A DNA stretch of 37,794 bases from Acidobacteriota bacterium (lineage in GTDB: Bacteria; Acidobacteriota; Terriglobia; Acidiferrales; UBA7541). Shown here in pieces: positions 17,119 through 37,577 of the stretch (position 1 is its first letter; the number at the start of each line of letters is the position of its first letter). A model generated the notes under the pieces. It saw only the letters and a program-made list of their open reading frames with translations, was not told the DNA's origin and ran no database searches. Both the position numbers and the translations under genes were made by a program. The DNA lies in the NCBI GenBank assembly GCA_023481105.1, contig JAMCWK010000096.1:1-37794 (forward strand). The letters run 5' to 3'.

Positions 17119-17201
17119 CCAATTGTTTGAGATCAATCTGCAACTCAACGTCCCGAATTGCAGTGATTCGGATTGAATTCTGCCAAGGAGGACAAACAGA
17201 A

Positions 17202-17879: not shown

Positions 17880-17898
17880 TGCAACTTCAACCCCTTTT

Positions 17899-17925
17899 GG
17901 GAGGGGCCGTATCACGGCCCCTCCC
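17899..17925 (+). terminator. Perfect 12-bp hairpin between tetraheme cytochrome and porin genes
   Basis: GGGAGGGGCCGT and ACGGCCCCTCCC pair over 12 bp around ATC, 20 bp after the cytochrome stop and 24 bp before the porin start. No T-tract follows. It may be a partial terminator or an mRNA-stabilising hairpin that sets different levels for cytochrome and porin. Confidence 0.55.
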
Positions 17926-17948
17926 GAAGGGAAGCGAAGGAAACCGGC

Positions 17949-19808: not shown

Positions 19809-19809
19809 T

Positions 19810-20850
19810 ATGCATAAAATCGCGACGATCTTAGCGTCATTGTGGGTTGCGCTGTTTTCTTCAGGAGGAAGCGGCCTTCCCACGCCTCCGCCTGCAGAAA
19901 ATTCGAAGTTCTCCGCTTCCGCGCCAATGGGTGCGATCGACTATCTCCGATCGGTGGACGCGCGCCAGGTGGATGCGCTTGCCAAGCCTCATTCCTTCTT
20001 CGGAAAGCTGATGGAGATCGTTGCAGGCCCGGCCGAAAGGCCGCGGCTCGTGAGGCCCCTGGGAATTACGGAAGATTCGCGCGGACGGCTGATCATCGCA
20101 GATCCGGGGCAGCGGGTGGTTCATCTGCTCGACATAGAAAAGAGGGAATACAAATTCATTGCCCGCGGGAAAAACCGTGCATTCCAATCCCCCGTGGGAG
20201 TGGCCGTGGATGGCCGGGACAACATCTATGTCAGCGACTCTGCCCGTGGAGAGATTTCCGTATTTGATGCCAAAGGCAAATTCCTGCGCGTGATCGGAGA
20301 GAAGACGGGGACCGGCCCCCTCCAGAGGCCCACCGGAATTGCTGTTGACCCGCTCGGGCGGCGTCTGTTCGTGACGGACACTCTGCAGCACCAGGTCCTT
20401 GTTTACGATCTGGAAGGCAAGTGGATTCGAACAATCGGTCGCCGCGGAGCAGAGATCGGAGAATTCAATTTCCCGACGTTCCTCGCGCTTTCGGGCGGCC
20501 GGCTCTACGTTGTGGACTCCATGAATTTCCGAATTCAGATGTTTTCACCGGACGGCAAGGCATTGGGAACCTTTGGCCATCTGGGGAATCGCAGCGGCAC
20601 CTTGAACCGACCCAAAGGCATTGGCGTGGATAGCGACGGCAACATCTACGTGGTGGATGCCCTGTTTGAAACCGTGCAAGTATTCGATAGCGAAGGGAAG
20701 CTCCTGTACTACTTTGGTTCAAGCGGATCGAAGCCCGGGCAGTTCGTTTTGCCCACAGGGATCTACATCAATCCGCGTAACCTGATCTATGTCGCGGATT
20801 CCTACAACCGGCGCGTGCAAATCTTCCGGTATCGGAGGGTGACGCCTTAA
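19810..20850 (+). CDS. Exported six-bladed NHL-repeat beta-propeller protein (second)
   Basis: The 346-residue protein has a short N-terminal hydrophobic segment (IATILASLWVALFSSGG), probably a signal peptide, then a Pro/Ser-rich linker and six NHL blades: RPLGITEDSRGRLIIAD, SPVGVAVDGRDNIYVSD, RPTGIAVDPLGRRLFVTD, FPTFLALSGGRLYVVD, RPKGIGVDSDGNIYVVD and LPTGIYINPRNLIYVAD. ATG 19810 lies 1 bp after the porin stop and the next cytochrome starts immediately after this gene's stop, so the three genes form one tight transcription unit. Probably periplasmic or surface-exposed; a scaffold or maturation partner of the adjacent cytochrome is an inference. Confidence 0.88.
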   Translation: MHKIATILASLWVALFSSGGSGLPTPPPAENSKFSASAPMGAIDYLRSVDARQVDALAKPHSFFGKLMEIVAGPAERPRLVRPLGITEDSRGRLIIADPGQRVVHLLDIEKREYKFIARGKNRAFQSPVGVAVDGRDNIYVSDSARGEISVFDAKGKFLRVIGEKTGTGPLQRPTGIAVDPLGRRLFVTDTLQHQVLVYDLEGKWIRTIGRRGAEIGEFNFPTFLALSGGRLYVVDSMNFRIQMFSPDGKALGTFGHLGNRSGTLNRPKGIGVDSDGNIYVVDALFETVQVFDSEGKLLYYFGSSGSKPGQFVLPTGIYINPRNLIYVADSYNRRVQIFRYRRVTP

Positions 20851-22740
20851 ATGCCCTTCTCGACGCCAACCCGGGTGCAGCGTCGCGCGACAATGTGGGC
20901 CGTGATTGTTGTGCTGTTCCTGGCTATTCCCGTCGTGGCGGGCCCGGATTCGACGCGGGCCGTGATTGCTTCAAAGCACAATCTCTCCGTGAGTGGCCCT
21001 GGCCCTGTCACTTCTTCCAAAACGGACGCCTGCATTTTCTGCCACACGCCGCACACGAGCGACGTGAATACAAAGCCGTTGTGGAATCACGCGCTGCCAA
21101 ACCAACCCTACAATACCTATACCAGTTCCACTTACAACGCCGGTGCCGGGACTCCCGCGTCGGGCTCGTCTAAACAGTGCTTAAGCTGTCATGACGGCAC
21201 GGTGGCCCTCGGGCTGACGATTTCTGAGGGTTTGATTCCCACGTCCGGGAGCATGGGTGCACCAGCAGTTCTCGGCACGGACTTGACCAATGATCACCCT
21301 GTCGCCGTCCAGCCGGTAGATGATGGTCAGCTGCACTTGAATCTCTTCCAGTCGCCGCCGAGCACAGGCGATCCCAGCGTTAACCTGGTTCTGGGGAAAA
21401 TTGAGTGCACGTCGTGCCACAATCCGCACGAACCGGCACGCGACGCCGTGGTGCAGAAGTTCCTGGTCCGTTCCAACAGCGGAGGCACAATTTGCCTTGC
21501 CTGCCACAGTCCTTCGCGCCCGCAGCCAAACATGCTGAATGGCTGGGCCACAGGCTCACATTCCACGGCGACAAATACAGTGCCGACCACGGCGTCGTTC
21601 GGTCCCTATGGAGCGGTGAACACCAATGCCTGCGGCAACTGCCACAAGCAGCACGGAATGGCGGCAGGCGCAGCGCAAAGACTCCTGTACGCAGTTGAGG
21701 AGGCGACTTGCAGTCCGTGCCACTCCGGTGCAAATGTCACGCCGGCTCTCCGCAACGTTCTGGGAGAATTCGCAAAGGCATACAGCCACCCCACCACGAC
21801 GGTGGCAGGAAGCCACGATGCTGCCGAGAGTGTTGCTCCCGTCAATGCGAATCGGCACGCCGAATGCGTCGATTGCCACAACCCGCATCCGGCGAGCAGT
21901 ACGGGCGGCGCCGCCAATCCTCCTGGTGTTGAATCTCCGTTGTTGGGAATCAGCGGGTACAACGGGGCCGGCGCGCTGCGTCCAGCAAGCAACGAATATG
22001 AAGTCTGTTTTAAATGTCACGCGGACAGCACCAACAAGCCACAATCCACTGCCGGCTACAGTGCCTATGGACGCACGCCGGTACGCGTGACCAATGCAAC
22101 CGCGGTGGATCCTTATAATCTCCGCCTCAAATTTGCTTCTGGCGTGGCCCGGCACAATGTGTCCAACCCTCGGCAGCGCACGGCAGTCCAAATGCCGAGC
22201 TTGCGCGCCAACATGCTGAATCTCGACGGGTCCGCCGGACGGTCGCTCGCTGCCGGTACCTACATTTACTGCACGGACTGCCACAGCAACAACCAGGCAA
22301 GGAAATCGAACGGAACGGGTCCCAACGGCCCTCATGGATCCACATGGAACCATTTGCTGGAGCGTCGGTACGACTTGGAGCCGCTGCCGCCAGGAGGCCC
22401 GGGCGGAAGCAGCACCGGTGTTCCCTTCGTCACGGGGATTAGTGGTACTGCGGGCGTATGTTACAAGTGCCACGACATTGACACCAGCATCCTTTTGAAT
22501 CAGAGCTTCAAGGAACACGACACGCACGTGCGCGGCGCAGACATTTCCTGTTCAAGCTGCCACGATCCGCACGGCATCCACGGTGGAACTTCTGCCAACA
22601 ATTCGAACCTTATCAATTTCGATGTGGCGATTGTTGCTCCGACTTCGGGAGGAGTCTTGCGCTTTAACGATCAAGGAAATTTCACCGGCCGGTGCTACCT
22701 GCGATGCCATGGAAAAGACCACAACCCGCTGTTCTACTAG
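20851..22740 (+). CDS. Large multiheme c-type cytochrome: 11 CXXCH plus one CX3CH
   Basis: The 629-residue exported protein has signal segment MWAVIVVLFLAIPVVAG. Eleven CXXCH motifs are visible: CIFCH, CLSCH, CTSCH, CLACH, CGNCH, CSPCH, CVDCH, CFKCH, CTDCH, CYKCH, CSSCH. A twelfth site at the C-terminus is CYLRCH, a CX3CH variant followed by GKDHNPLFY. The N-terminal third parallels the tetraheme protein at 17202. ATG 20851 abuts the stop of the NHL gene; ATG 20893 is a shorter alternative just before the signal core. Long Ser/Thr/Gly-rich stretches between hemes resemble extracellular cytochromes. Probable outer-surface electron carrier; partners are the porin and NHL proteins. Confidence 0.88.
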   Translation: MPFSTPTRVQRRATMWAVIVVLFLAIPVVAGPDSTRAVIASKHNLSVSGPGPVTSSKTDACIFCHTPHTSDVNTKPLWNHALPNQPYNTYTSSTYNAGAGTPASGSSKQCLSCHDGTVALGLTISEGLIPTSGSMGAPAVLGTDLTNDHPVAVQPVDDGQLHLNLFQSPPSTGDPSVNLVLGKIECTSCHNPHEPARDAVVQKFLVRSNSGGTICLACHSPSRPQPNMLNGWATGSHSTATNTVPTTASFGPYGAVNTNACGNCHKQHGMAAGAAQRLLYAVEEATCSPCHSGANVTPALRNVLGEFAKAYSHPTTTVAGSHDAAESVAPVNANRHAECVDCHNPHPASSTGGAANPPGVESPLLGISGYNGAGALRPASNEYEVCFKCHADSTNKPQSTAGYSAYGRTPVRVTNATAVDPYNLRLKFASGVARHNVSNPRQRTAVQMPSLRANMLNLDGSAGRSLAAGTYIYCTDCHSNNQARKSNGTGPNGPHGSTWNHLLERRYDLEPLPPGGPGGSSTGVPFVTGISGTAGVCYKCHDIDTSILLNQSFKEHDTHVRGADISCSSCHDPHGIHGGTSANNSNLINFDVAIVAPTSGGVLRFNDQGNFTGRCYLRCHGKDHNPLFY

Positions 22741-22837
22741 TTTCTTAAGCGGCCGCCCCAAAGGTGCCGGTTATAGCACGGCTAAGGAATGCCACCTGAC
22801 TTGCCATGGTACTGGTCACAATCCAAAGAGGTACTGA
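22741..22837 (+). pseudogene. Remnant of a second cytochrome C-terminus
   Basis: Directly after the cytochrome stop, in another frame, the DNA encodes GAGYSTAKECHLTCHGTGHNP, then KRY and a stop at 22835-22837. This parallels the preceding gene's end (GRCYLRCHGKDHNPLFY), including a CX3CH motif, GxxHNP and a terminal Tyr. No start or upstream body exists, so it seems to be the tail of a deleted or recombined paralogous cytochrome. The following 290 bp up to 23128 show no recognisable gene. Confidence 0.7.
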
Positions 22838-23127
22838 ATCAGGAGCAAGAACTAGAGCCGAGTATGCGAGCCAACGAAAAATCGTATCCCTTTCGGTGCT
22901 TTGCACGGCACAGCGGAACACGACGAGACTCTCACCCCTGGAAGCTCGCGAATTGCGCTTTCTGTGGATTGCCAGGGAAGCGAGTACGCACTCCAGATTT
23001 GGACCGCGGAGCCGTGACACTGAAATGGCTTCAATTTCAATCGATTATGCAATCGTCGCCTTGCGTAGGATTGGCTATCGATTTGCCTGCAAATTGAGGT
23101 TGGGGTAGTTCTGCGGAGAGGTGCGTC

Positions 23128-24123
23128 ATGTGCGATCGAAAACATATCCAAGTCATGAGTCGTCTTGGCCATCCGTTGGGGATTGTCTTCCTTCTCCTGT
23201 TCTTTCTTGCCAGCACTTGCGTGAACGCACAAGTCCCTGCCTCCCCGCGGCGGATCGCAGAGCTGGACAAGAAAGCGATCCTGATTACAGACATCAATAC
23301 AGACTTGCAAGGAACGCTAGTGGCACTGGACAAGGCGACGATGCAGGTCGTTTGGACTTGCACGGTGCCCGGAGAGCCATTGGGCGTGGCGCACTGGAAG
23401 AACCTGTACCTAGTAGGTGATTCGGCATCGGGCAATGTCAGCGTCTATCGAATGGCCGGCGCAAACAGAGGCCTGCCCTGCTCAGGCACCGCGGCTGGAA
23501 AGTCGCTGGAGTTCCTGTTCAACTTGGGCCAAACGCAGCCCGGGGCCCCGGGATTCTTCCAAAAGGTTAATGACGTGGCCCTGGACGTGGACCTGCAGCG
23601 CATTTTCGTTGTGGACACGGGCGAGAAAAAAGTCAAGGTTTTTGACAACAAAGGAAATTTTCTGCATTCATTTCCGGAAATTGCGCCGACTTTGCTGAAT
23701 CCGACGGCGATCGCTGTGGATGAGACGAGGCAGGAAGTCCTCGTCAGCGATTTCGGGGATCCCTCTGGGAGCTTCAGTCCAACAGTCCCTCCCAGAATCA
23801 TGATCTTCAGTTATTCAGGCAACTACCTTGGTCAAATCACTAGCGATTCATCGAATGCCTCCAGCTACTTTTCAAAACCTCAGGGTCTAAGCGTAGATGG
23901 ATCTGGGCAGGTCTTCCTGGTTGATGCGTTTCTGGCAAAAGTGCTTGTGTTGGATCGTGTCACAGGGGCTTGGATCCGATCTTTCGGCGGGCCGGGCGAT
24001 CAACCCGGTGACTTAAAACTTCCCCTCGATTTGTTGCTCGACCGCGCTACAGGAGATGTATTCGTCACCAGCAACATGACTGGGCGCGTGGAAGTTTTTC
24101 GTACCGCAGGGAGGGTCCCATGA
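23128..24123 (+). CDS. Exported NHL/beta-propeller protein (third, divergent)
   Basis: The 331-residue protein has signal segment IVFLLLFFLASTCVNAQ. The first third is PQQ-like (GTLVALDKATMQVVWTC, then LYLVGDSASGNVSVYR). Four NHL-like blades follow: VNDVALDVDLQRIFVVD, NPTAIAVDETRQEVLVSD, KPQGLSVDGSGQVFLVD and LPLDLLLDRATGDVFVT. It is more divergent than the other two propellers. ATG 23128 has GGAGAGG a short distance upstream; ATG 23155 is an alternative. The gene end overlaps the next cytochrome by 4 bp (ATGA), repeating the NHL-cytochrome coupling seen twice upstream. Confidence 0.83.
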   Translation: MCDRKHIQVMSRLGHPLGIVFLLLFFLASTCVNAQVPASPRRIAELDKKAILITDINTDLQGTLVALDKATMQVVWTCTVPGEPLGVAHWKNLYLVGDSASGNVSVYRMAGANRGLPCSGTAAGKSLEFLFNLGQTQPGAPGFFQKVNDVALDVDLQRIFVVDTGEKKVKVFDNKGNFLHSFPEIAPTLLNPTAIAVDETRQEVLVSDFGDPSGSFSPTVPPRIMIFSYSGNYLGQITSDSSNASSYFSKPQGLSVDGSGQVFLVDAFLAKVLVLDRVTGAWIRSFGGPGDQPGDLKLPLDLLLDRATGDVFVTSNMTGRVEVFRTAGRVP

Positions 24124-24764
24124 AAACGGGTGTCCGCAACTTTTTTATTGTCGCTTGGATTTCTTCAGTTGCATGTCTTGGCACGTCACTGGCGCGTGCT
24201 CAAACTTCGCGAAATGCCATCAAGGTGAACTGCGCCATGTGCCACAGCGCTCATGGAGGATTTTCATTCCTGCTGAATCAAGCTGATGTCGAGCTGCTGT
24301 GCTTGAGTTGTCATGGTCCCGGCGGCATCGCAACTGAAGCTGCGGTGCACTACAACGCCAAGACGACCTATCCAGCGTATCGCATCACCTGTCTCGGTTG
24401 CCATAACGCCCATTACGACCTCTCCAATCAGGTCGGCACAAAAAACATCGAACTTGTTGCAAACGTTCGCGACGACACCAACGGCGCGAAGATTAATACG
24501 CCACCCAACGACGGTGGACCGTGCCTCGACCCCGTTCCGGGCGGTGGTTGTTACCGCATTCAAGTCTTTGCGGATCGCACTCTAACAGGAGCCCAGTCAA
24601 ATTGGGCCTCAACTGCACCACCTTATCGCGGTGCCTGCAACGTTTGTCACACGCGCACAGGTCACCACCAAAATAGCGACTTGGATTCGACGGCGGATCA
24701 CACACACAACATCAATAGAGTTTGCACTTCGTGCCATCTCCACACGAAAGGCTTTATCAAATAA
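24120..24764 (+). CDS. Pentaheme c-type cytochrome, exported
   Basis: The 214-residue protein has signal segment FFIVAWISSVACLGTSLARAQ and five CXXCH motifs: CAMCH, CLSCH, CLGCH, CNVCH and CTSCH. Extra histidines (SAHGG, NAHYD, TGHHQNS, DHTHN) may act as distal heme ligands. Two further cysteines (GGPCLDPVPGGGCYR) are not in heme motifs and may form a disulfide. It starts inside the end of the third NHL gene (ATGA overlap) and is the last gene of the cluster. Probably a periplasmic or surface electron carrier. Domain order differs from the 4-heme and 12-site proteins, so it is a distinct subfamily. Confidence 0.87.
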   Translation: MKTGVRNFFIVAWISSVACLGTSLARAQTSRNAIKVNCAMCHSAHGGFSFLLNQADVELLCLSCHGPGGIATEAAVHYNAKTTYPAYRITCLGCHNAHYDLSNQVGTKNIELVANVRDDTNGAKINTPPNDGGPCLDPVPGGGCYRIQVFADRTLTGAQSNWASTAPPYRGACNVCHTRTGHHQNSDLDSTADHTHNINRVCTSCHLHTKGFIK

Positions 24765-27374: not shown

Positions 27375-28511
27375 TCAAGCTGCGCCGGCCGGGCGTGCCG
27401 ACATTCTGCGCAAGAAAGCAGGCAGCCCGAAGATGGTCTTCCGCAACAGGCGATAGATTAGATAAAGCAGCGGCGGCCAGAACGGGATGCTTAGCGCAAA
27501 TCCGGGCCACAAGGTGACGCTAACCGGTTCGCGCCACGACCAAATCAGCAGCGCCGCGGCGACGCCTTGCAAAAGAATCGTAGAAAGATAAATCGCCGCG
27601 CGCTTGCGCCCTTCTTTGGTAGTCGGCCGGGCTTTCCGGAATTCTTTGACGAACGCCCAGCGGCCGCCGGCCTCTTTGATGCCGGTCCACTGGCTGACGA
27701 TCTTAGCCAGGTCCGAGCCTTCCTCCATCGCGTAGGAAAATTGCAGGACAAACAGCGCCTGCGGAAGTAAGAACATCAAGGTGATGAAATTCGGCCAGAG
27801 CAGCCACAGGTTGACGAGCACAAAAAAAGCGAACATGTCCAGAAACGCCCCGCCGGCAAAGTATGGAATGAGCTGGCTCGGCTTGCTCAGCGGCGAAGTG
27901 TTGGAGAGAACGTAGAGGTTGGCGTTATTCTTGCGCACGCCGACTTCCAGCACTTCCCCGCCGAACCAGCGGCAGACCACGCCGTGGCCCAACTCGTGCA
28001 GCAGGCCGATGGGTACGAAGCACAAGTAATAGAGAAGCATGGCGGGCACGGGATACACGCCGGTGATGCGGCCCACCTCGGATACAAACAGGCCCCAGTT
28101 GCTCAACAGGAGCCACAGCCCTGCAAACAGCAAAACGAAGAGCAAGACTACGGCCGGCGCGGTGAACAGCCAGCGGCAGCGATGCGTCAGAAAATCAAGC
28201 GCCGGGCCGGGGTCAAATAGGCGCACGCGCGGATAACGCTTGGGGTAGCCCTCAAAAATTCCAAAGTCCTTGAGTTGGTTAATGAACCCTGCCCATTCTT
28301 CCTGCGTGCAGTCGTAATCCATGGCGGCGCGAACATCCGGCATCATGTCCGCCAGCGCTTGACCGCGGCAAAGCTTAAGCGCGGCGGCCGCGCGCTCATC
28401 CAGCACTTGCGAGGCGACCTCCGGGTGGTAAAGAAACACGTAGCCGCCTGTGAGCGGCCGGAATTCCAGGCCGGAACGCAGGACCGGCGCGCGGGGTTCA
28501 GCTTGCTCCAT
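27375..28511 (-). CDS. PqqD-like domain fused to M50-type membrane metalloprotease
   Basis: The 378-residue integral membrane protein has an N-terminal soluble part (about 1-95) resembling a PqqD-like winged helix (GGYVFLYHPEVASQVLDERA), the fold used as a peptide-recognition element in RiPP pathways. Several membrane helices follow (116-138, 152-171, and more), with HELGH at 172-176, the M50/S2P zinc motif, then FGGEVLEVGV. The second M50 motif NPxxxxDG seen in the paralogue at 31810 is not obvious; SYAMEEGSD lies at the likely place. ATG 28511 has GGAGG seven bases upstream. It is divergent, by 82 bp, from the kinase-regulator pair. Probably processes a membrane or peptide substrate; it could be catalytically altered. 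Confidence 0.8.
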   Translation of the reverse strand: MEQAEPRAPVLRSGLEFRPLTGGYVFLYHPEVASQVLDERAAAALKLCRGQALADMMPDVRAAMDYDCTQEEWAGFINQLKDFGIFEGYPKRYPRVRLFDPGPALDFLTHRCRWLFTAPAVVLLFVLLFAGLWLLLSNWGLFVSEVGRITGVYPVPAMLLYYLCFVPIGLLHELGHGVVCRWFGGEVLEVGVRKNNANLYVLSNTSPLSKPSQLIPYFAGGAFLDMFAFFVLVNLWLLWPNFITLMFLLPQALFVLQFSYAMEEGSDLAKIVSQWTGIKEAGGRWAFVKEFRKARPTTKEGRKRAAIYLSTILLQGVAAALLIWSWREPVSVTLWPGFALSIPFWPPLLYLIYRLLRKTIFGLPAFLRRMSARPAGAA

Positions 28512-28593
28512 GGACGGCCTCCAGTGTAGAGTGCATCCCGTAGCTGGTTGCCTACGAGCGAAAACTCAAAACAGAGAATTCAGACTGCCCAGA

Positions 28594-29466
28594 ATGGATG
28601 AAACGCCCCAAATTCCTCGCGCCGACACGCCCAGTAGCGATTCCGCCGCGGACTGGCTGCGAGAAGCGGCCGAATATTTGGTTCATCCACAGCAGCAATT
28701 GACTCCGCCTCCGCAACCCGAGCTGATGCCAGCCTACGACACGGTGCTGGCCTGCCGGCAACAACTGGAAGCATCGCAGCACGAGCTGATCCAGGACGTC
28801 GAGATGCAGGCCATGCAGACCGTCGGCTCCATCCTGGCGCATGACCTGCACAACTTATCGCTGCGATTGGCGCTGTTGAGTCAAAACCTGGAGCAATTCT
28901 ACGGCGATCCGGAATTTCTGCAAAGCGCGAAACGCGTGCTGGACGATACCGTCGAACGCATGCAGGGCCTGGTGGATGGCTTCCGCGCGCGGCAGGAAAC
29001 GGTGATCGTAAAAATTCTGACCGACGTGGGAGACGTCTTGCGCGCCGTGGTGCGCCAGGCCGGAGTGGAGTCCATCCCCGGCTTGCAGGTGAAGGGAGAG
29101 TACGCTGAGTCCGTGAACAAAATCTGGGCGGACCCGTTCTTCCTGGCCAACGCAATCCGCGTGCTGCTGGATAACGCCGTGCAGGCCATGCCTCATGGGG
29201 GACGGCTGACGCTGCGCACGCGTTCTACGGCGCAGGGCGGCGCAGAATTGGAAATCGAGGATTCCGGGGAAGGCATGACCAAGGAGTTTGTCGAACGCGA
29301 GTTGTTCGCGCCGTTCCGCTCGAGCAAGGGCCGCGGCCTGGGGCTGGGCATGTACATTTGCCAGCACATTATCCGCCTGCATGGCGGCGAAATCCGCTTG
29401 GCCAGCGAGCCGGGCACCGGAACCCTGTTCCGTCTGACCTTCCCGCAGGGGGCGGAACAGTCATGA
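28594..29466 (+). CDS. Soluble sensor histidine kinase
   Basis: The 290-residue protein has no membrane segment. The dimerisation/phosphoacceptor helix has HDLHN with His83, followed by the HATPase_c domain: N-box LLDNAVQAMP near 194, G1 DSGEGM near 223, G2 GRGLGLGM near 245, and the C-terminal GTLFRLTFP. No PAS or GAF sensor is fused, so the input must come through a partner or the first 70 residues. The stop overlaps the regulator start (ATGA), so the two form a coupled two-component pair. ATG 28594 follows the divergent promoter region; upstream in-frame reading overlaps the M50 gene antisense. The PrsK kinase of PEP-CTERM systems has a comparable regulator partner, but this one is much smaller. 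Confidence 0.87.
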   Translation: MDETPQIPRADTPSSDSAADWLREAAEYLVHPQQQLTPPPQPELMPAYDTVLACRQQLEASQHELIQDVEMQAMQTVGSILAHDLHNLSLRLALLSQNLEQFYGDPEFLQSAKRVLDDTVERMQGLVDGFRARQETVIVKILTDVGDVLRAVVRQAGVESIPGLQVKGEYAESVNKIWADPFFLANAIRVLLDNAVQAMPHGGRLTLRTRSTAQGGAELEIEDSGEGMTKEFVERELFAPFRSSKGRGLGLGMYICQHIIRLHGGEIRLASEPGTGTLFRLTFPQGAEQS

Positions 29467-30869
29467 ACGGCCCGCGTCAAATTCTGGTGGTCGAAGACGA
29501 TCAGCAGCTTCGTGAGCAGATGTACTTCTCGCTGAAGCAAGAGTACGAAGTGGCGCAGGCGGGCAGCCTCGACGAAGCGCTCGGCCAACTGACACGGGTG
29601 CGCGCCGATATCGTTTTGCTCGATCTGCAATTGAGCACGAACGGAACGGTGGACCAGGGATTCACGGTCTTGCGCGAGGTCAAGCGCCAGGTCAGCGACA
29701 CGGTGGTCATCGTGATGACCGGCGACCCTCATCACGAGACGCGGCTGCGTGCCATCGAAGAAGGCGCTTATGATTGCTTCAGAAAGCCGTTCGATATCCG
29801 CGATGTGAAGCTGGTGATCGCGCGCAGCCTGGAGCGGCTGGACCTGGAGCGCGAAAACCGGCGACTGCGCAGCGAAGTCATTCGCACGTCGTCGTTTCAG
29901 CGGCTCATCGGCTGCAGCACGGCAATGACGAGCGTGTTCGACATGATCCGCCGCGTGGCCGACAGTCCGGCCACCGTGCTGTTGCAGGGCGAAAGCGGGA
30001 CGGGCAAGGAGCTGGCGGCGCGCGCCATCCACTACCAGAGCATGCGGCGGGATGAGCCGTTTGTGCCTGTGCACTGCTCGGCGCTGCCGGAAACGCTCAT
30101 CGAAACGGAACTTTTCGGCCACGAAAAAGGCGCCTTCACCGGCGCAGTAGCTGCGCGCGAAGGCCGCTTCGAGATGGCACACCGTGGCACGCTATTCCTG
30201 GACGAAGTGGGCACGCTCAACTTGAACGTGCAGACCAAGCTGCTGCGAGTGCTGGAGGAACGGCAGTTCGAGCGCGTCGGCGGGCGGAAGACCCTCAATG
30301 TGGATGTGCGTTTGGTGGCCGCCACCAATGAAGACCTGGAAACATTGGTTACGGCGGGACGCTTCCGCGACGACCTGTTCTTCCGCCTGAATGTCCTGCC
30401 CATCCGACTGCCGCCGTTGCGCGAGCGCATGGAAGACATTCCCGTGCTGGCCAGTTCCTTTGTGCAGAGTTACTGCGAGCGCTGCAAGCTGCCTCGAAAA
30501 CGAATAGCGCCGGAAACCATTCAGCTTCTTATGAGCCACTCGTGGAAGGGCAACGTGCGCGAATTGGAGAACGTCATCCAGCGCGCCATTCTCATGGCGG
30601 ATGGTGATTTGTTGCTGCCTGAGCATCTGCCCGCCCAGGTTCGCTGCAGCGATGCCCCCGCCGCAAGCGGGCAAGTTATGATTCCTCCCGAGGGGCTGAA
30701 GATGGAGCAGGAGATTTCGCAGTTCGAGCGCAGGCTGTTGGAATGCGCTCTAACCCAAGCAGGAGGCGTAAAGGCCAAAGCTGCCAAACTCCTCGGACTG
30801 ACGAAGGAACAGATGAAGTATTTATGTCGAAAGCACGGCGTGGAGAGGAAATTGTCACCCGAGGGGTAG
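29463..30869 (+). CDS. NtrC-family sigma-54-dependent response regulator
   Basis: The 468-residue transcription activator has a receiver domain (1-120) with acidic pair EDD and phosphoacceptor Asp54 (VLLDLQL). The AAA+ domain has Walker A GESGTGKE (176-183), the sigma-54-contacting loop GAFTGA (223-228), Walker B TLFLDE (243-248) and NVRELENV. A C-terminal Fis-type helix-turn-helix reads AKAAKLLGLTKEQMKYLC. Intact GAFTGA means it can activate sigma-54 polymerase. It is coupled by a 4-bp overlap to the kinase. A sigma-54-like promoter and a palindrome lie just downstream, before the repeat-peptide gene, the most likely target. Confidence 0.95.
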   Translation: MNGPRQILVVEDDQQLREQMYFSLKQEYEVAQAGSLDEALGQLTRVRADIVLLDLQLSTNGTVDQGFTVLREVKRQVSDTVVIVMTGDPHHETRLRAIEEGAYDCFRKPFDIRDVKLVIARSLERLDLERENRRLRSEVIRTSSFQRLIGCSTAMTSVFDMIRRVADSPATVLLQGESGTGKELAARAIHYQSMRRDEPFVPVHCSALPETLIETELFGHEKGAFTGAVAAREGRFEMAHRGTLFLDEVGTLNLNVQTKLLRVLEERQFERVGGRKTLNVDVRLVAATNEDLETLVTAGRFRDDLFFRLNVLPIRLPPLRERMEDIPVLASSFVQSYCERCKLPRKRIAPETIQLLMSHSWKGNVRELENVIQRAILMADGDLLLPEHLPAQVRCSDAPAASGQVMIPPEGLKMEQEISQFERRLLECALTQAGGVKAKAAKLLGLTKEQMKYLCRKHGVERKLSPEG

Positions 30870-30940
30870 TTTTCAACCTCCACATCCTGCAAGTGCCCCA
30901 ACTTGAGTCATTCATCACCGCCTAACACTATGAAAACACA

Positions 30941-30965
30941 CCAGTACTGGTACTTGAAGTACTGG
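30941..30965. promoter_or_regulatory. Palindromic operator-like site upstream of the repeat-peptide gene
   Basis: CCAGTAC and GTACTGG form an inverted repeat at the two ends of this 25-bp site. The left half is itself a perfect palindrome, CCAGTACTGG, and AGTACTGG occurs twice in direct orientation 15 bp apart. It is centred about 25-30 bp upstream of the sigma-54-like element, so it could be the binding site of the adjacent NtrC-type activator. It is closer to the promoter than most such sites. Confidence 0.55.
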
Positions 30966-30975
30966 AACTAGCCCA

Positions 30976-30992
30976 TTGGCCCTGTGAGTGCA
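30976..30992 (+). promoter_or_regulatory. Candidate sigma-54 promoter (-24/-12)
   Basis: TTGGCCCTGTGAGTGCA matches the sigma-54 consensus YTGGCACGRNNNTTGCW at 14 of 17 positions, counting degenerate ones. The essential GG and GC pairs are exactly 12 bp apart. Initiation would fall near 31003, giving a leader of about 115 bases before ATG 31119. It fits the neighbouring sigma-54 activator. Confidence 0.6.
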
Positions 30993-31118: not shown

Positions 31119-31694
31119 ATGGCAGACCCGAAATCGGTGGTGATCAAGCTGACGAACGAGCAACAGGAAGCGATCCGCCGGGCCACAGGCCAGGAGATCA
31201 CGGAATTCAAGGTGGAAGCTCTGGAAGGCCGGGAATCGCCCATCAGTTTGCGCGCACTGGAAAGCCGCAAAGCCCCGTTCGCGGCAGACATGGAAGCGGC
31301 TCGCAAGGCTCCGTTCGGAGTGGATGCGGAATCGGCCCGCAAGGCTCCGCTGCGCATGGGAGACGAGGAAGCTCGCAAGGCCCCGTTAAAGGTCGGTGGC
31401 GAGGAAGCGCGCAAGGCCCCGATGAGCGTGGATGCCGAATCCGCGCGCAAGGCCCCGCTGCGCGTCGGCGATGAGGAGGCCCGCAAGGCGCCGCTGAGTG
31501 TGGACGCGGAGGCCAGCCGCAAAGCACCCCTGAGCGTGGATGCGGAAGCCAGCCGCAAGGCACCGTTGAAGATTGGCAGCGAGGAAGCCCGCAAGGCGCC
31601 GCTGTCCGTCGATACGGAAGCCAACCGCAAGGCCCCGCTCTCCATTGACTCCGAGGCGAGCCGCAAGGCGCCGCTGAAGATCACCGAAGACTAA
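31119..31694 (+). CDS. Tandem RKAP(L/F/M) repeat protein, candidate peptide precursor
   Basis: The 191-residue protein has no signal peptide or membrane segment. Residues 1-37 form a leader-like, partly helical region (VVIKLTNEQQEAIRRATGQE). Residues 38-49 (RESPISLRALES) look like a degenerate unit. Residues 50-191 are twelve 12-residue units of the form RKAPL-SVDAEAS, ten with variations at positions 5-12 and the last shortened to end KITED. RKAP is invariant; position 5 is L, F or M, and the rest alternates acidic and small residues. GGAGG lies 6 bp before ATG 31119. A sigma-54-like promoter lies upstream and a strong terminator downstream. I recognise no family. It could be a multi-core peptide precursor, a secreted repeat protein or a scaffold. 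Confidence 0.85.
   Translation: MADPKSVVIKLTNEQQEAIRRATGQEITEFKVEALEGRESPISLRALESRKAPFAADMEAARKAPFGVDAESARKAPLRMGDEEARKAPLKVGGEEARKAPMSVDAESARKAPLRVGDEEARKAPLSVDAEASRKAPLSVDAEASRKAPLKIGSEEARKAPLSVDTEANRKAPLSIDSEASRKAPLKITED
31266..31691 (+). repeat. 36-bp tandem repeat array within the repeat-protein gene
   Basis: Twelve in-frame units of 36 bp (the last 30 bp) encode RKAP-starting 12-mers. The block CGCAAGG-C-CCG-T recurs, with third-position changes between units. Length is constant, but sequence has drifted, indicating selection on the protein repeat rather than recent slippage alone. Confidence 0.9.
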
Positions 31695-31735: not shown

Positions 31736-31781
31736 ACGGGCCGCCCCTCGGTGAATGCCGACGGGCGGCCCGTTTTTTTTT
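31736..31781 (+). terminator. Strong rho-independent terminator after the repeat-peptide gene
   Basis: ACGGGCCGCCC (31736-31746) pairs perfectly with GGGCGGCCCGT (31763-31773). An inner TCGG/CCGA stem extends it, and nine T follow (31773-31781). A second small hairpin, GCGGGTCC/GGACCCGC, lies at 31703-31720. It isolates the repeat-peptide transcript from the convergent operon ending at 31810. Confidence 0.9.
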
Positions 31782-31809: not shown

Positions 31810-33954
31810 TCACCACCACACTTTGCTGCGGAACAAATCCTTCGCGGAGCGGAAGACCCTGCCGGCAATGCTGCGGCTATCTGCGCGAATCTTCACCATC
31901 CCGCTCATTCCTGCGCGAAGGCGCCCATCGCGGTTGGGAATCTCTGCAAACACATGGAAATGTGAAAAGGCGCCCGGCTCGGACTTGGTGCCCAACACGA
32001 CCGCCGAGCGCACAAGTTCCGCCGTGCGGTTGGCCGCGTTGTAGGAATCATCGGCAGCCATGCCGCGCGAGGATATCGAACCCCGAAAAGTGTCCCCCGG
32101 AAAGGAGTTCAATTTCAGGCGGACTTCGCGGTTGTCCGCGATGTCGCGAAGGAGGAATTCATTGACGCGAATGCGTGCGCGCATTGTTTGCAACATGCCG
32201 AAATTGCAAAGCAGGTCGCCCGGCTTGACGAACTGGCCCTTCAGATCCTGCAAGCGCGCCGTGAGAATGTACCCGTCAAACGGGGCCCGGATCACCAGCA
32301 GGGCTTCCTGGCGCTGCCATTCCGACAAATCCTTCGCGGCGGATTCCAGCTCGCGCTGGCTGGACTGCGAGCCGGACACGTCTCCCGCGGCTTGCGCGCG
32401 CGCCACAGCGGAACGCAGGCGCTCCACCTCTCCCTCTGCGTTTTCGCGGCGGGCCACTATTTCCGGGTTGCGCAGACGCACCAAGACTTCGCCAGCGGCT
32501 TGCAGCCCGTCGGGGTTGACGGCGACTCCGGCCACGAAGCCGGGCGCCTCCGCGCGCAATGGAAGTTGCCGCGCCGGCTCCAAAACCACCGGGGCGGAAA
32601 CGGTGTTGCCAAACGGGTAGAAAAGCACAACGAGCAGCAACACGGCAGTCGCCAGGCCCCAGCGCCGGATGGAGGCCTTCTGCGTGAGCAGCTCGCGCTT
32701 ATCGAGAAAAACAAAGCGGGAGAAAGTCATAAGCTTTTGAATCCTTTTTTTCAGAATCATGTAAGCCAGGAAAGTGCCCAGGAAAATACCCATCTCCGGA
32801 AAATTCCGCATCGAAGTGCGGAACACGAAGAGCACAAACAGCGTCACAATGAAAACGATGTAAACCGTGGAGAGCAACCCGTACACCGTCCAGATGCGCT
32901 TCTTGCGCGGCGTAAGTCCCGGAGGCGGCGTGGCCGCCACGCGGTACACTTTTTTCCGCAAAAGATACGAGATGTAAGCGGCGGAATTCTCGCGCAGGTT
33001 GGACATCTCCAGGATGTCGCTGAGCAGGTAGTAGCCGTCGAGCTTGATGAGCGGGTTGTAGTTGAAAATAATCGTGGAGACGCCGGCAAAGACCATCACA
33101 TTGTAGGCCACGTGGTGAGCGAGTGTGTCCGGCGCCGTGAGCCACCAGGTGAACACCGCGGTGGAGCAGATGCACAGTTCGCTGTAGCCGCCCGCCAGCG
33201 TGACCCAGTACTTGTGCCACTTCTTGTCGAAGAGGTAGGCATCGCTGACGTTGGCATAAAACGCCGGCGCAAAGAAGATGAGCATGAAACCCATCTCCGT
33301 GACTTCCCCTCCGAAATTCATGCACGTGAGGGCATGGGCGGACTCATGAATGGCGATGACAAACGCCAGGATGAGAAAAAGCAGCACCACGTCGGCTGAG
33401 GTTTTCTCCTGAAAATTCCAGAATTTCAGCATGCCCTCGCGCACAGCGGCCCAGTTGGATACGATCACCGTGGCCGCCGCGCAGAAATACAACAGAGTGG
33501 AAACCACAAATGGCGGCGTCCAAATCCAGCGCAGCCAGGGATAAATGGCGCTGTAGAATTTTTGCGGGTTGGTGGTGGCCAGCGTCAGGTAGAAGATGTC
33601 CTTGGCCTGGCTTTGTTCGGCCTGTTTTTTGCGCTTGGCCTGGAGCTTTTCGAGAATGACGATGCTGCGCTCGGCCGGTGAGCGCACGATCAGCTCTTTC
33701 TTCTTGAGCGTGTCCACGAAATCTTCGATTTGTCCGGCGTCAATATCCACGTCGGGAAACTGTTCCGAAAAAGCGTCGGCAATGTCCTGGTAGGAGTTTT
33801 CGCCGTTCAGGCGCGAAATGATGGCCCACTCCATCTCGCGGAAACGGAGGTATTCAGAGGTCTCGCGGTTTTTGATGAGATAGGTGACCTCGCCGGCCAT
33901 TACCTGGCGCTTCAGCACAAGGTCATCGCGAAGTTTGGGGCCTTTGTAAGCCAT
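31810..33954 (-). CDS. PqqD-like / M50 peptidase / HlyD fusion membrane protein
   Basis: The 714-residue protein has an N-terminal PqqD-like winged-helix region (about 20-90). Membrane helices with an M50 metalloprotease core follow: HESAH at 203-207 and NPLIKLDGYYLL at 300-311 (NPxxxxDG), so both zinc-site motifs are intact. After further helices (about 355-405 and 430-447) comes a periplasmic HlyD/biotinyl-lipoyl-like adaptor part (from about 455: APGFVAGVAVNPDGLQAAGEVLVRL, split by a coiled coil; APFDGYILTARLQDLKGQFV). Fusions of this type are annotated as putative peptide zinc metalloproteases. ATG 33954 begins the fold. It is the last gene of a three-gene operon, convergent with the repeat-peptide gene. 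Confidence 0.87.
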   Translation of the reverse strand: MAYKGPKLRDDLVLKRQVMAGEVTYLIKNRETSEYLRFREMEWAIISRLNGENSYQDIADAFSEQFPDVDIDAGQIEDFVDTLKKKELIVRSPAERSIVILEKLQAKRKKQAEQSQAKDIFYLTLATTNPQKFYSAIYPWLRWIWTPPFVVSTLLYFCAAATVIVSNWAAVREGMLKFWNFQEKTSADVVLLFLILAFVIAIHESAHALTCMNFGGEVTEMGFMLIFFAPAFYANVSDAYLFDKKWHKYWVTLAGGYSELCICSTAVFTWWLTAPDTLAHHVAYNVMVFAGVSTIIFNYNPLIKLDGYYLLSDILEMSNLRENSAAYISYLLRKKVYRVAATPPPGLTPRKKRIWTVYGLLSTVYIVFIVTLFVLFVFRTSMRNFPEMGIFLGTFLAYMILKKRIQKLMTFSRFVFLDKRELLTQKASIRRWGLATAVLLLVVLFYPFGNTVSAPVVLEPARQLPLRAEAPGFVAGVAVNPDGLQAAGEVLVRLRNPEIVARRENAEGEVERLRSAVARAQAAGDVSGSQSSQRELESAAKDLSEWQRQEALLVIRAPFDGYILTARLQDLKGQFVKPGDLLCNFGMLQTMRARIRVNEFLLRDIADNREVRLKLNSFPGDTFRGSISSRGMAADDSYNAANRTAELVRSAVVLGTKSEPGAFSHFHVFAEIPNRDGRLRAGMSGMVKIRADSRSIAGRVFRSAKDLFRSKVWW

Positions 33955-33982: not shown

Positions 33983-35137
33983 CTAGCGGACGCGGACAGC
34001 CATGCCGTCCTGCAATTTGTCCGTGACGCGGGCGACGATGCGTTCCCCGCCGGAGATGCCGCTGAGGACCTGCACGCCGGACGCGCTCTCGCGTCCAATT
34101 TTCACGTTTCGTTTTTGCAGGCGGTCTCCCGCAATCACAAACAAGTCGGCACGGTCTTCCGTCGTGCGACGCAATGCGCTGGCAGGAACCGTCGGAGCGG
34201 CGGATGCGGGTGTTGCGCCGGGAACGCGCACGTCCACGGCCATGCCCGGCACGAGACCCGCGGGGACAGGCTCCACAAGCTGCGCCGTGCATTCCAGCGA
34301 GCCGCTGGAGGCATCCACAACCATGCTCGTGCGCACCACGCGCGCTTTCGCCGCGCTGGCAGCCGCATCGGCCGGAAACACTTCCACGACCGCGCCGCTG
34401 GCTGCGGCATGCCGCGCCGACTCCGGCACAGTGAAGCGCACCAGGAGGGGCCGCAACTCGGTCAGGCGCAGCACTTTTTCGTCCCGCAGCATGGACTGGC
34501 CCACGCGCGCATAGCGACGCGAGACGATGCCGTCAAAGGGCGCGCGGATGTCCATACGCGAAAGCCGAATCTCACCGTCTTCCACTTTCGCCTTGGCGCG
34601 TTCGAAATCCGCTGCGGCTTTTACAATTTCCACTTTGTAGGATTCCAAACTAAAGCGGGCGCGGTCGAAATCGCGCATGCTGCCAAGGCCTTCTTTCCGT
34701 AATTCGCTCTGCCGCTGCAGCTCGACTTCGGCAGCCTGCCGCAGCACCTCGGCCTGCTTTGCTGTGGCTTCGAGCATGCGAGCTTCCGCGCGGTCCTGCT
34801 CCAGTTGCTTGCGCAAGCGCGAGGCGTCCAGCCGGGCCAAGAGCTCGCCCTGCTTCACGCGCTGGCCCATGTCCGCCGTCACTTCCAGCAGGCGGCCCTC
34901 CTCTTGCGCAATCAAGTCGGCTTCGCGTTCAACGGCCAGCGTGGACGCCACCGTGAGCGGGCGAACTGCTGCTGAATCCGCTGCCGGCACCACGAACACC
35001 TCCACGTCGGCGACGGCTTCGGACGCTTTGGCAGGCTGTTGCGGCTTTTCCGTGCTACACCCGGACAGGCCGGCGAGCAGCACAAGCAAAAGTGCTCCGT
35101 GGCGTTTCACAAACTTCCTCCCGTTCATCCCTATCAT
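33983..35137 (-). CDS. Periplasmic adaptor (membrane fusion) lipoprotein, RND/HlyD family
   Basis: The 384-residue protein has a lipoprotein signal: LLLVLLAGLSGC with the lipobox Cys near residue 27. The membrane-fusion-protein order follows: barrel-sandwich half (EEGRLLEVTADMGQRVKQGE), a long coiled-coil hairpin (about 90-180), the second half (MDIRAPFDGIVSRRYARVGQ) and beta-barrel domains (VPGMAVDVRVPG, VKIGRESASGVQVL). ATG 35137 overlaps the stop of the upstream gene by 4 bp (ATGA); ATG 35128 is an alternative. No RND pump or outer-membrane channel gene is nearby, which is unusual for this family and suggests that it works with the HlyD-type fusion proteins on either side. Confidence 0.88.
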   Translation of the reverse strand: MIGMNGRKFVKRHGALLLVLLAGLSGCSTEKPQQPAKASEAVADVEVFVVPAADSAAVRPLTVASTLAVEREADLIAQEEGRLLEVTADMGQRVKQGELLARLDASRLRKQLEQDRAEARMLEATAKQAEVLRQAAEVELQRQSELRKEGLGSMRDFDRARFSLESYKVEIVKAAADFERAKAKVEDGEIRLSRMDIRAPFDGIVSRRYARVGQSMLRDEKVLRLTELRPLLVRFTVPESARHAAASGAVVEVFPADAAASAAKARVVRTSMVVDASSGSLECTAQLVEPVPAGLVPGMAVDVRVPGATPASAAPTVPASALRRTTEDRADLFVIAGDRLQKRNVKIGRESASGVQVLSGISGGERIVARVTDKLQDGMAVRVR

Positions 35138-37518
35138 GGCAGCCAGCTCCACACCTTCAGCCAGATCCAGCGCAGCGGCGCGCGGAACATCAAGTAGCCC
35201 ACCGGCGCGCGACGCGCCAGCACCTTGCCGCGGCCCATCATGCCCGTGCGCAGCGATTGGTCGGCGTTGGGTACCTCGACGATAACGTCGAACACTCGCT
35301 CATCACTCTGCTCGCGCGCCTGCGGCGAAATGCGCACCACGTGTCCGACAAACTTGCGGTCCGGAAACGTATTCAGTTTCAGCCAGGCTTCCTGCTCCGG
35401 CAAGATTTCTCCAACTTCCTTTTCGGGCACGGCGATTTCCACCCAGGCGCGGCCGGCGTCAACGACCTGACAGAAAACGTCGCCGCGGCGCAGCAACTGG
35501 CCGGTGCGCTCTTCGAGCCTGGGAGTTATGACGACGCCAGTAATGGGGCTGCGAATTTGCGTGGCGGCCAGGCGCGTGTGCGCTAAATTCAGCTCCGCTT
35601 CTGCTTGCTGCATCCGTGCGCGCTCCATGCGCGCCTCGCCCAGGTCGCCGGCGGCTTCGAGTTGCAGCACGCGGCGTGAGGAGATGTCGAAGTTCGATTG
35701 TGCCTGCTGCAAGGCCACACGCATCTCTTCGGGCGCCACTTCCGCGAGCAGGTCTCCGGCGTTCACGCGCGCGCCCTCGCGCACGCGCACGCTGCGCACC
35801 ACGCCTTCCACCTCTGCGCTGACCGGTTGCATCAGCGCGGGCAACACACGCGCTTCGCCGCTCGGCTTGGAATACCACGGGAAGAAAGCTAGGAATGCCA
35901 CCAGCAGCACGGCGCTTGCAATCATCACACTGCGGCGAGCGGCGGGGATGGCCGCAAACTTCGCGCGTTTTTCCGCCAGTGGTTGGAGCACCCCGGCCAG
36001 GGGCATCTGCTGATAGAGAAGCGCGTTACGCACCGCCACGGTCACCTGGCTGGCAAAAATGCGAGCCAAATCGTAATGCCCATGCGACAGCCCGCCGGGT
36101 TCCTTGCCCTCCAGGACGAGCGTGCCGACGATGCTTTCCTCGTCGCGCAGCAGAATGCCCATGAAAGCGGACATCCCGGCCTGTTCGAAGAAAGTAGCGA
36201 ACTTGTCGCGGACTTCTTCGCGCTCGGCATCAATACCTTCTTCCGTGCGTAGCACCGTGCAATCGCCGCCGGAGCCCGCCAGCCATACGTGCATAGCTTC
36301 CAACTCGGGCATGCCCGCAGCCTTGCGGTCCAGCTTCATTTCCCCGGAAACGGCGCAGAGTTCCCAGCGGCCTTTGCGAAAAAGGGCCACGGTGCAGCGG
36401 TCGCAAGGAATCACTGAGGTGATGCGATTGACGGTGGTGGAAAGCACGCGATCGAGGTCCAGCGTGGCCGTGATTTCCTTGCTGATCTCCATCAGCGCGT
36501 TCAGCTCGTTAACGCGGCGCTCCGCCTGCAAGCGCTGGGCGTTGCGCAGCGACACGGCGGCCTGCTTGGCCACGTCAATCAGCAGGCGCAGATCTTCTTC
36601 AGTGAAGTAGCGCCCGCCCTCGCTGCGTACCGCTTCGATGGCGCCGAGGAAGCGGCCACCCTGCATCAGGGGCACAGCCAGCAGGGAGCGAATCGAGCCT
36701 CCCCAGCGGTCGGTCCACTCCGGCTCAACGACGTTGTGCAGCAGCACCGCTTCGCCCTGCGACACCGAAGTGCCCAGTCCGGTGTCGCTAGCCCACACGC
36801 GCACCGAGCGCATATCTTCCGTTCGCGGGCCTTCGGCGGCCGCACAATAGAGGTTGCGCTTCACCGGGTCCAGCATCCACACCGTGGCGGATTCCGCCTC
36901 GAGAATATTCAGCACGCGGCTGCAAATCACCGGCGCCAGTTCTTCCATCTCCAGCGTGGAATGAAACACCTTGCCGATGTCGTACAGCATCATCAAACGG
37001 GAAATGGCGTTGACGTAGTTGCGGCGCTCAGACTCGTACTCCAGCAGCGCCGGCAGGGACTTGTTCAGCACATCTTCGAGCAAGGTGAGAATTTCCGAAG
37101 TGGCCGCGGGCTTGCCTCCGCCCACTTTCCACCATAGCTCGATGCAGCCGATGGTTCCTTTAGGTCCGCGGAGCGGAACGCCCGCCACCTGCGCAAGCTG
37201 CGCGCCGGCCAAGGCAGTGCGATATGGGCCCGATGGTGATTCCTGGACTGCCGCGGAGCCGCTGCGCCACGAAGCCATGCCCACGGAATCGCCGACATTC
37301 TCGATGGTCCAGTCCATCCGCGCAGTCCCGTGGACGGCCAGAGCGAAAAGCAGGTCGTCCTCGGAGCGCCAGAGGATGGCGCCGTCCGCGCCCAGATAGT
37401 CGGCGAGGCGATCAAGGAGATCAGGCAGCTGGTCGGGATCGCGGCAGGTCTGCAGGTAGGGCAAAAATTCCGCGCGCAAGACCTGCAACAGTTCAGTATG
37501 CCCGGACGAAGCTGGCAT
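35134..37518 (-). CDS. Three-GAF sensor fused to HlyD-type membrane adaptor
   Basis: The 794-residue protein has three GAF-like domains in the N-terminal, presumably cytosolic part (about 35-160, 175-330 and 338-500; for example ILEAESATVWMLDPVKRNLY and ITSVIPCDRCTVALF). One membrane helix follows (about 531-547: MIASAVLLVAFLAFFPWY), then an HlyD/MFP periplasmic part (VEGVVRSVRVREGARVNAGD, a coiled coil, TQIRSPITGVVITPRLEERT and a beta-barrel). ATG 37518 has GGGAG about 10 bp upstream; GTG 37536 is a longer alternative. It is the first gene of the operon with the adaptor lipoprotein and the M50-HlyD fusion. A cytosolic sensor joined to a secretion adaptor suggests export or envelope contact gated by a small ligand. 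Confidence 0.87.
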   Translation of the reverse strand: MPASSGHTELLQVLRAEFLPYLQTCRDPDQLPDLLDRLADYLGADGAILWRSEDDLLFALAVHGTARMDWTIENVGDSVGMASWRSGSAAVQESPSGPYRTALAGAQLAQVAGVPLRGPKGTIGCIELWWKVGGGKPAATSEILTLLEDVLNKSLPALLEYESERRNYVNAISRLMMLYDIGKVFHSTLEMEELAPVICSRVLNILEAESATVWMLDPVKRNLYCAAAEGPRTEDMRSVRVWASDTGLGTSVSQGEAVLLHNVVEPEWTDRWGGSIRSLLAVPLMQGGRFLGAIEAVRSEGGRYFTEEDLRLLIDVAKQAAVSLRNAQRLQAERRVNELNALMEISKEITATLDLDRVLSTTVNRITSVIPCDRCTVALFRKGRWELCAVSGEMKLDRKAAGMPELEAMHVWLAGSGGDCTVLRTEEGIDAEREEVRDKFATFFEQAGMSAFMGILLRDEESIVGTLVLEGKEPGGLSHGHYDLARIFASQVTVAVRNALLYQQMPLAGVLQPLAEKRAKFAAIPAARRSVMIASAVLLVAFLAFFPWYSKPSGEARVLPALMQPVSAEVEGVVRSVRVREGARVNAGDLLAEVAPEEMRVALQQAQSNFDISSRRVLQLEAAGDLGEARMERARMQQAEAELNLAHTRLAATQIRSPITGVVITPRLEERTGQLLRRGDVFCQVVDAGRAWVEIAVPEKEVGEILPEQEAWLKLNTFPDRKFVGHVVRISPQAREQSDERVFDVIVEVPNADQSLRTGMMGRGKVLARRAPVGYLMFRAPLRWIWLKVWSWLP

Positions 37519-37577
37519 CGTTGATGTCTCCCACACTCGGACGAAACGCTGCGACCGACCAACCGAATGAGCGTGAC

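Follow-up and report, generated by a model that had tools for sequence, protein, structure and literature searches.

A leader-bearing repeat protein of Acidobacteriota, the probable substrate of a PqqD–M50–HlyD maturation and export locus

The window analyzed here, the whole stretch of DNA under study, comprises 37,794 nucleotides of an Acidobacteriota genome (assembly GCA_023481105.1, contig JAMCWK010000096.1, positions 1 to 37,794 of the forward strand). It contains a gene for a protein with a short leader and twelve RKAP repeats and, on the opposite strand, genes for an intramembrane protease and periplasmic adaptors. An initial annotation, made from the nucleotide sequence alone, had drawn attention to the repeats. 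Our comparison with related loci indicates that the RKAP protein is a member of a large, apparently undescribed bacterial family in which the leader and the gene neighborhood are shared and the repeats are rebuilt in each lineage. No description of the locus was found in a literature search that covered mostly open-access papers.

The repeat precursor gene

The gene and its parts are the following:
31119..31694, + strand: leader and repeat precursor, 191 amino acids (open reading frame with an ATG after the Shine–Dalgarno sequence GGAGG; orthologue; selection pattern)
31119..31265, + strand: leader, residues 1–49; its motif is that of class A, VxIxLTxEQxxxIrxATGxxxxExxVE, and the degenerate unit RESPISLRALES forms its end
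31266..31691, + strand: RKAP array, twelve 12-residue units, the last one partial (Tandem Repeats Finder, TRF, period 36/108; disorder predicted)

The RKAP motifs start at residues 50, 62 and so on up to 182, all 11 of the 11 spacings being exactly 12 residues, and at period 12 the protein has 91 identities versus a maximum of 31 in 2000 shuffles. The twelve motifs and the exact period of the initial annotation are thus found again; the last unit, however, is partial and ends the protein with RKAPLKITED. As had been noted, RKAP is unchanged (12 of 12 units) and position 5 is variable, with L in nine units, F in two and M in one. In the 11 full units position 10 is always E; K and E stand at a fixed spacing, and the peptide is nearly neutral with a net charge of +1.

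At the DNA level the RKAP codons occur in six spellings over the 12 units with silent variation only. Comparing the units with each other, the proportions of synonymous (pS) and nonsynonymous (pN) differences are 0.38 and 0 in the RKAP columns and 0.78 and 0.38 in unit columns 5–12. The earlier argument for selection from silent drift is therefore supported by direct comparison. The period statistics together with the codon pattern exclude chance or a frame artefact as the source of the array; open reading frames in other frames that overlap it merely follow from the 36-nt period.

According to the initial annotation, an array that had expanded at random within an already known folded domain would have been the refuting case. 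The precursor offers no such picture: it matches 0 Pfam families, has no credible NCBIfam match and fits no repeat model of these databases, such as that of the pentapeptide repeats, and AlphaFold2 models the array, the C-terminal half of the leader-bearing peptide, as disordered. The sole NCBIfam match, to an unrelated transferase, scores 18 bits and is due to chance. A second copy of the precursor was not found in its own genome. Two weak plasmid matches (Cytobacillus, Nonomuraea) are matches of repeat composition, and the weak matches at loci L003–L006 and L157–L158, all of them without leader or locus, concern repeat composition only. One of these, L157 (genome G545), has a 12-residue array of its own, KRRSVSGPRAIL, whose 36-nt period is open in several frames.

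An orthologue from the same genus (L055/L075; G001, an Acidobacteria groundwater metagenome-assembled genome) is 76% identical and has the same leader with ten RKAP units, one of them spaced 16. RKAP is therefore fixed between the two species while the number of units differs, and the constant period holds for the window array but not for the orthologue. A third genome of the genus has neither the peptide nor the protease, so the locus is patchy.

The window leader reads VVIKLTNEQQ...ATG. Between the window and the same-genus orthologue residues 1–50 differ by 11 synonymous and 2 nonsynonymous changes, and this part is predicted by AlphaFold2 to fold as strand–helix–strand with a predicted local distance difference test (pLDDT) score of 72–88. 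The leader-like region suspected at the outset is thus borne out as a real leader. The degenerate unit directly before the array could also be traced (RESPISLRALES, residues 38–49) and is kept in the sister species. A search for solved structures resembling the leader found none.

Protease, adaptor and regulator genes

The genes and signals around the precursor gene are:
28450..29466, + strand: sensor histidine kinase paired with the regulator (Pfam HATPase_c; 90% identical orthologue in the sister species)
29358..30869, + strand: sigma-54-dependent response regulator that probably activates the precursor gene (Pfam/NCBIfam)
30977..30992, + strand: candidate sigma-54 promoter TGGCCCTGTGAGTGCA (−24/−12) with 2 mismatches, 142 nt upstream of the ATG
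31737..31781, + strand: intrinsic terminator after the precursor gene, read directly, with a perfect 10-bp stem CGGGCCGCCC/GGGCGGCCCG and then a T run
31810..33954, − strand: PqqD-like domain, M50 intramembrane metalloprotease and HlyD adaptor in one protein, 714 amino acids from the likely ATG (Pfam PqqD, Peptidase_M50, HlyD)
33983..35152, − strand: HlyD-family periplasmic adaptor (Pfam/NCBIfam RND_mfp) with the lipobox LSGC, read from the sequence
35134..37536, − strand: fusion of GAF domain and HlyD adaptor (Pfam GAF, HlyD_D23), kept upstream of the protease gene in relatives

Kinase and regulator genes lie upstream on the precursor strand, and the protease and adaptor genes on the opposite strand are convergent with the precursor gene. 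That the precursor has no signal peptide and would need a dedicated route of export had been pointed out before; this is supported, and a candidate route adjoins on the other strand.

The three-part protein, whose listed open reading frame extends to 34098, has the catalytic motifs HESAH and NYNPLIKLDGYY, and HExxH and NxNPLxKxDGY are invariant in 30 homologues. It matches the NCBIfam family daptide_HExxH (NF041824) with 177 bits (E 4e-52), below the 300-bit cut-off; YydH/LiaK is a weak NCBIfam match in the window. In the AlphaFold2 model (pLDDT 83) the N-terminal domain consists of three strands followed by three helices, the arrangement of PqqD-type leader-binding domains, and the adaptor part matches the fold of MacA, AcrA and MexA. 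A second PqqD-like and M50 membrane protein (27375–28511, − strand, motif HELGH), which lacks an HlyD part, adjoins the histidine kinase gene. It was excluded as a part of the system because no relative was found in 40 related genomes.

The candidate promoter is conserved in the sister species as TGGCCCCGTGAGTGCA. Counting sites with at most 2 of 11 mismatches, a −24/−12 element is present upstream of 37 of 42 peptide genes, mostly 60–90 nt before the start, versus 2.7% of 1500 random 400-nt windows. Given the adjacent sigma-54 regulator and the sigma-54 promoter, expression of the precursor is likely to be inducible. A palindrome, CCAGTACTGG ... AAGTACTGGAAC, lies just upstream of the candidate promoter (30940–30968) and is possibly an activator site, in which case it is unusually close to the promoter.

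M50 proteases commonly serve in regulated intramembrane proteolysis, and sensor GAF domains, a kinase and a regulator all belong to the locus. The peptide could for these reasons be thought to stay in the cell or membrane and to regulate the protease or the signalling pair, nothing being exported. We consider this improbable, as every locus has three HlyD-type periplasmic domains and some have apparent TolC-type channels, and as such a regulator would have no need for units that differ from lineage to lineage and are present in up to about 20 copies.

Leader classes and repeat arrays in related loci

Eighty public loci were fetched via the protease protein and analyzed along with the window. 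They come mostly from Acidobacteriota, and also from Bdellovibrionota, Planctomycetota, Verrucomicrobiota, Eisenbacteria and SAR324. The protease–adaptor gene is present in 20 of 61 related genomes and in 60 of 396 sampled Acidobacteriota genomes (about one in seven). Forty-one loci, the window included, have the GAF–HlyD gene upstream of the protease gene and a sigma-54 regulator gene convergent to it, beyond the peptide gene. In 27 of these 41 an open reading frame with tandem repeats occupies the slot between protease and regulator genes on the convergent strand; elsewhere in these loci there is only one repeat island in 600 kb.

The repeats are of many kinds. Phylum relatives whose leader aligns from residue 1 carry KSALAS (G577), KAAKGL (G373), SGKSL (G522) or RAAKSL/RSAKSM (G597) arrays. 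Arrays in the slot consist of LQRGT (L056), APRVA (L126), LREEG (L148, two genes), SGGKGL (L110), ARVTPH (L103), ANTR (L109), LLKNQP (L112), LSKQAH/LSKQIS (L090, L097) and AKSTNL (L128) units. RKAP is thus fixed only within the genus, and what lasts beyond it is the leader, the layout of the locus and the fact of repetition. Within the arrays of L110, L126, L148 and L056 the units are identical in protein sequence, yet they are wholly different between lineages. The constant leader, protease and regulator, combined with a unit that is exact in each genome and different in each lineage, point to an unusual evolutionary regime, and the system offers a clean test case for the turnover of repeat arrays under selection.

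Since the unit sequence differs between genera, one might take the arrays for expansions of low-complexity DNA without function at the protein level. The codons speak strongly against this. In 26 of 26 arrays scored pS between units exceeds pN, even with some scored segments extending into the leader, which raises pN. Units identical in protein sequence are spelled in many ways: 20 SGGKGL units (L110) in 15, 12 APRVA units (L126) in 12 and 14 REEGL units in 12 different spellings. Also the fixed position in the locus and the sigma-54 promoter are at odds with a mere expansion, which we regard as next to impossible. The arrays are not fresh DNA expansions; an exception is L099, where all five KAGVA units have the same DNA sequence, which makes them probably young. 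The codon variety reflects either purifying selection on each unit or an advantage in preventing recombination, or both.

The leaders fall into four classes. Class A is common to the window and L079, L114, L126, L148, L155, L156, L168, L169 and L171, class B reads MxIQKKSLISxLxTTKKAxVAS, class C is of the KKGKKL type, and class D, LExRIAPG, is found in other phyla. The name LEPR-XLL was tried for class D and dropped, as the sequences tested gave no match. Placed on the protease tree, the four classes require 3 changes, the minimum possible, versus a mean of 23.3 with shuffled labels. That the leader class follows the protease tree fits a pairing of substrate and protease. Short low-complexity peptides with an LExRIAP leader are encoded just upstream of the PqqD–M50–HlyD gene at L072:9605–9742, L072:10428–10607, L073:6358–6552, L137:9766–9918 and L152:4718–5119, also within the window's own family (G034).

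Nature of the payload

The 42 peptides contain no cysteine and almost no aromatic residues, and none has a segment of the hydrophobicity that a membrane helix requires. Lysine and arginine make up 13–35% of each peptide, typically 17–21%. Not all of them are compatible with a purely cationic role, as the window peptide has a net charge of only +1 and those of L079 and L148 are net negative.

In Bdellovibrionota KLEERIAPG-type class D leaders are found on proteins of more than 1000 residues near the protease–adaptor gene (L091:17162–21283, L093:5105–8143, L130:5691–9353, L143:3756–6809). Two of these proteins match adhesin-type domains, and genes for an outer-membrane efflux protein (OEP) and a GAF–HlyD protein adjoin. 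OEP domains were recognized in L091 and an OEP-like cluster in 6 loci; the window has none. Leader-dependent secretion of the adhesin-like proteins is possible, and these loci lend support to export as well as to the notion that payloads can be larger than a small peptide.

This raises the question whether the same system exports the repeats as an intact disordered chain that serves as surface or matrix material, for instance in adhesion or in binding polyanionic polysaccharides. The freely varying array lengths, the basic and cysteine-free composition and the large class D proteins, which share an operon with an outer-membrane channel and GAF–HlyD, would suit such a polymer. It is harder to reconcile with L076, L078, L081 and L100, which carry short tails without an array, and with the exact identity of units within an array, which suggests a specific partner for each unit. 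We hold an intact polymer for possible though rather doubtful.

The initial annotation had also considered side-chain crosslinks between K and D/E. Such units would make the protein a ribosomally synthesized and post-translationally modified peptide (RiPP) with, for example, lactams introduced by an enzyme encoded elsewhere. The fixed spacing of K and E in the window array would allow this, and in genome G209 (L025, L026, L027; contigs C401, C392, C425) at least eleven short open reading frames with a class A-type leader (MAGNKLTIKLTDEQQKQIKxATGKSIxELNID...GG) adjoin a gene for a TIGR03975 radical S-adenosylmethionine (SAM) RiPP C-methyltransferase (L026:1806–3713, 535 bits versus a cut-off of 282 bits), which looks like a multi-precursor RiPP cluster. 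The crosslinks themselves found no backing. Among the window reading frames scanned there is no ATP-grasp domain as in graspetide ligases, and no other ligase or RiPP modification enzyme was found in the window or recurrently in the 80 loci, a distant enzyme being possible. The genome of the window, which is 85% complete, has no TIGR03975 match above the cut-off; many arrays have no acidic residues, and many relatives do not have the K/E pattern (SGGKGL, APRVA, LQRGT). Modification of the units is accordingly highly improbable in our view.

Comparison with known systems

In the biosynthesis of daptides leader removal is assigned to an intramembrane site-2 protease that carries a fused RiPP recognition element (RRE), the leader motif being ELExMEAP (PMC10036551). 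For TMcin the DUF3267/PF11667 protease TmcP of the site-2 protease clan removes the leader in the membrane, as shown by catalytic mutants (PMC13252029). The window protease resembles the daptide leader peptidase MpaP (NF041824) in that a PqqD-like/RRE domain precedes the M50 membrane protease. In daptides, too, one leader motif is common to several short precursors, and the class D motif LExRIAP resembles ELExMEAP (PMC10036551). In contrast to daptides, the protease is here fused to an HlyD adaptor and the payload is a repeat array. Neither the ELExMEAP motif nor the invariant C-terminal threonine of daptide precursors is found: the window precursor ends with LKITED and other classes end variously. 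There is no ATP-binding cassette (ABC) transporter, and enzymes of the MpaB/C/D/M type, such as a daptide decarboxylase, aminotransferase or methyltransferase, are not among the window genes and none recurs beside the relatives.

TMcin and epipeptides (TmcP, YydH/LiaK) also have an intramembrane metalloprotease, which is assigned to leader removal from a small precursor; they differ by ABC exporters and hydrophobic or epimerised cores, whereas here the peptide has neither a transmembrane core nor cysteine and the locus encodes no radical SAM enzyme. The HlyD/MacA/AcrA/MexA adaptor fold and the outer-membrane efflux proteins of Bdellovibrionota loci recall tripartite efflux and type I secretion. 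Our loci, however, have three adaptors, no recurrent pump of the ABC, resistance-nodulation-division (RND) or major facilitator superfamily (MFS) type, and a protease as inner-membrane partner.

Multicore precursors such as those of cyanobactins and orbitides, the fungal repeats processed by Kex2 and yeast alpha-factor consist of a leader and tandem near-identical units that change fast between species. The RKAP family has the same build, but there is no homology, there are no known processing sites and the secretion machinery is another one.

The system thus belongs neither to the daptides or graspetides nor to classical type I secretion. A leader and a PqqD-like domain are present and co-segregate, and the domain may bind the leader as an RRE does in RiPPs. 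By analogy the system would work in the manner of leader peptidases guided by an RRE, its payload and exit being unusual.

Proposed maturation and export

We think that the locus is probably dedicated to maturation and export and that the RKAP protein is its substrate. The histidine kinase and the sigma-54 response regulator would switch on the precursor gene. The PqqD-like domain of the three-part membrane protein would then bind the strand–helix–strand leader, and the M50 active site would remove it; these two steps are proposed by analogy with the daptide and TMcin proteases. The HlyD portions could pass the disordered payload to the periplasm and to the outside, to which other phyla would add an encoded TolC-type channel. 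The payload consists of short units that are nearly identical and contain one or a few basic residues apiece. Outside the cell it may act in the form of numerous short peptides set free from it, or else as a single repetitive chain. We lean slightly to the former, given that in several carriers there is only a single short tail and that units match exactly in one lineage and differ in the next, as species-specific signals do. RKAP ends in AP like the daptide leader; most other arrays are without AP, and we do not claim RKAP as a general cleavage site.

Several points weigh against this proposal. The co-segregation of leader class and protease is also expected from plain vertical inheritance. 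The clade of the window itself is known from just two genomes, and 14 of the 41 loci have no clear array, though some of them have a leader peptide with a short basic tail. Finally, the 80 loci have no recurrent energised pump, whether ABC, RND or other, and no ABC, RND or MFS pump is encoded in the window. The proposed passage of the payload across the inner membrane is tentative on this account.

Tentatively, the PqqD–M50–HlyD protein could take the place of the usual pump in a leader-dependent secretion system, recognizing and cutting payloads and handing them over, with the units as fast-evolving, lineage-specific external signals or effectors. The payloads would then range from basic tails of 30 residues and hypervariable arrays in Acidobacteriota to adhesin-like proteins of more than 1000 residues in Bdellovibrionota. 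If the protease–adaptor fusion does move the substrate, it would be an inner-membrane partner for HlyD/TolC-type conduits besides ABC, RND and MFS pumps. Acidobacteriota are abundant in soil and groundwater, and their secreted peptides are little known; cultured carriers in Edaphobacter and Granulicella, such as Edaphobacter lichenicola and Granulicella aggregans, make the system testable.

Additional observations

A SET-domain protein with a class A-type leader is encoded in genome G209 (L025:779–1435). At L060:10406–10993 another gene for a SET-domain protein lies directly downstream of the protease–adaptor gene and convergent with it, which is a second link of SET domains to this leader system. 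In 17 loci a small STAS-domain-like protein (anti-sigma-factor-antagonist type, judged by eye) is encoded about 6 kb upstream of the protease stop codon, usually divergent from the GAF–HlyD gene. At some distance from the precursor gene, positions 14495–24764 of the window (+ strand) encode multihaem cytochromes (Paired_CXXCH) alternating with NHL beta-propeller proteins.
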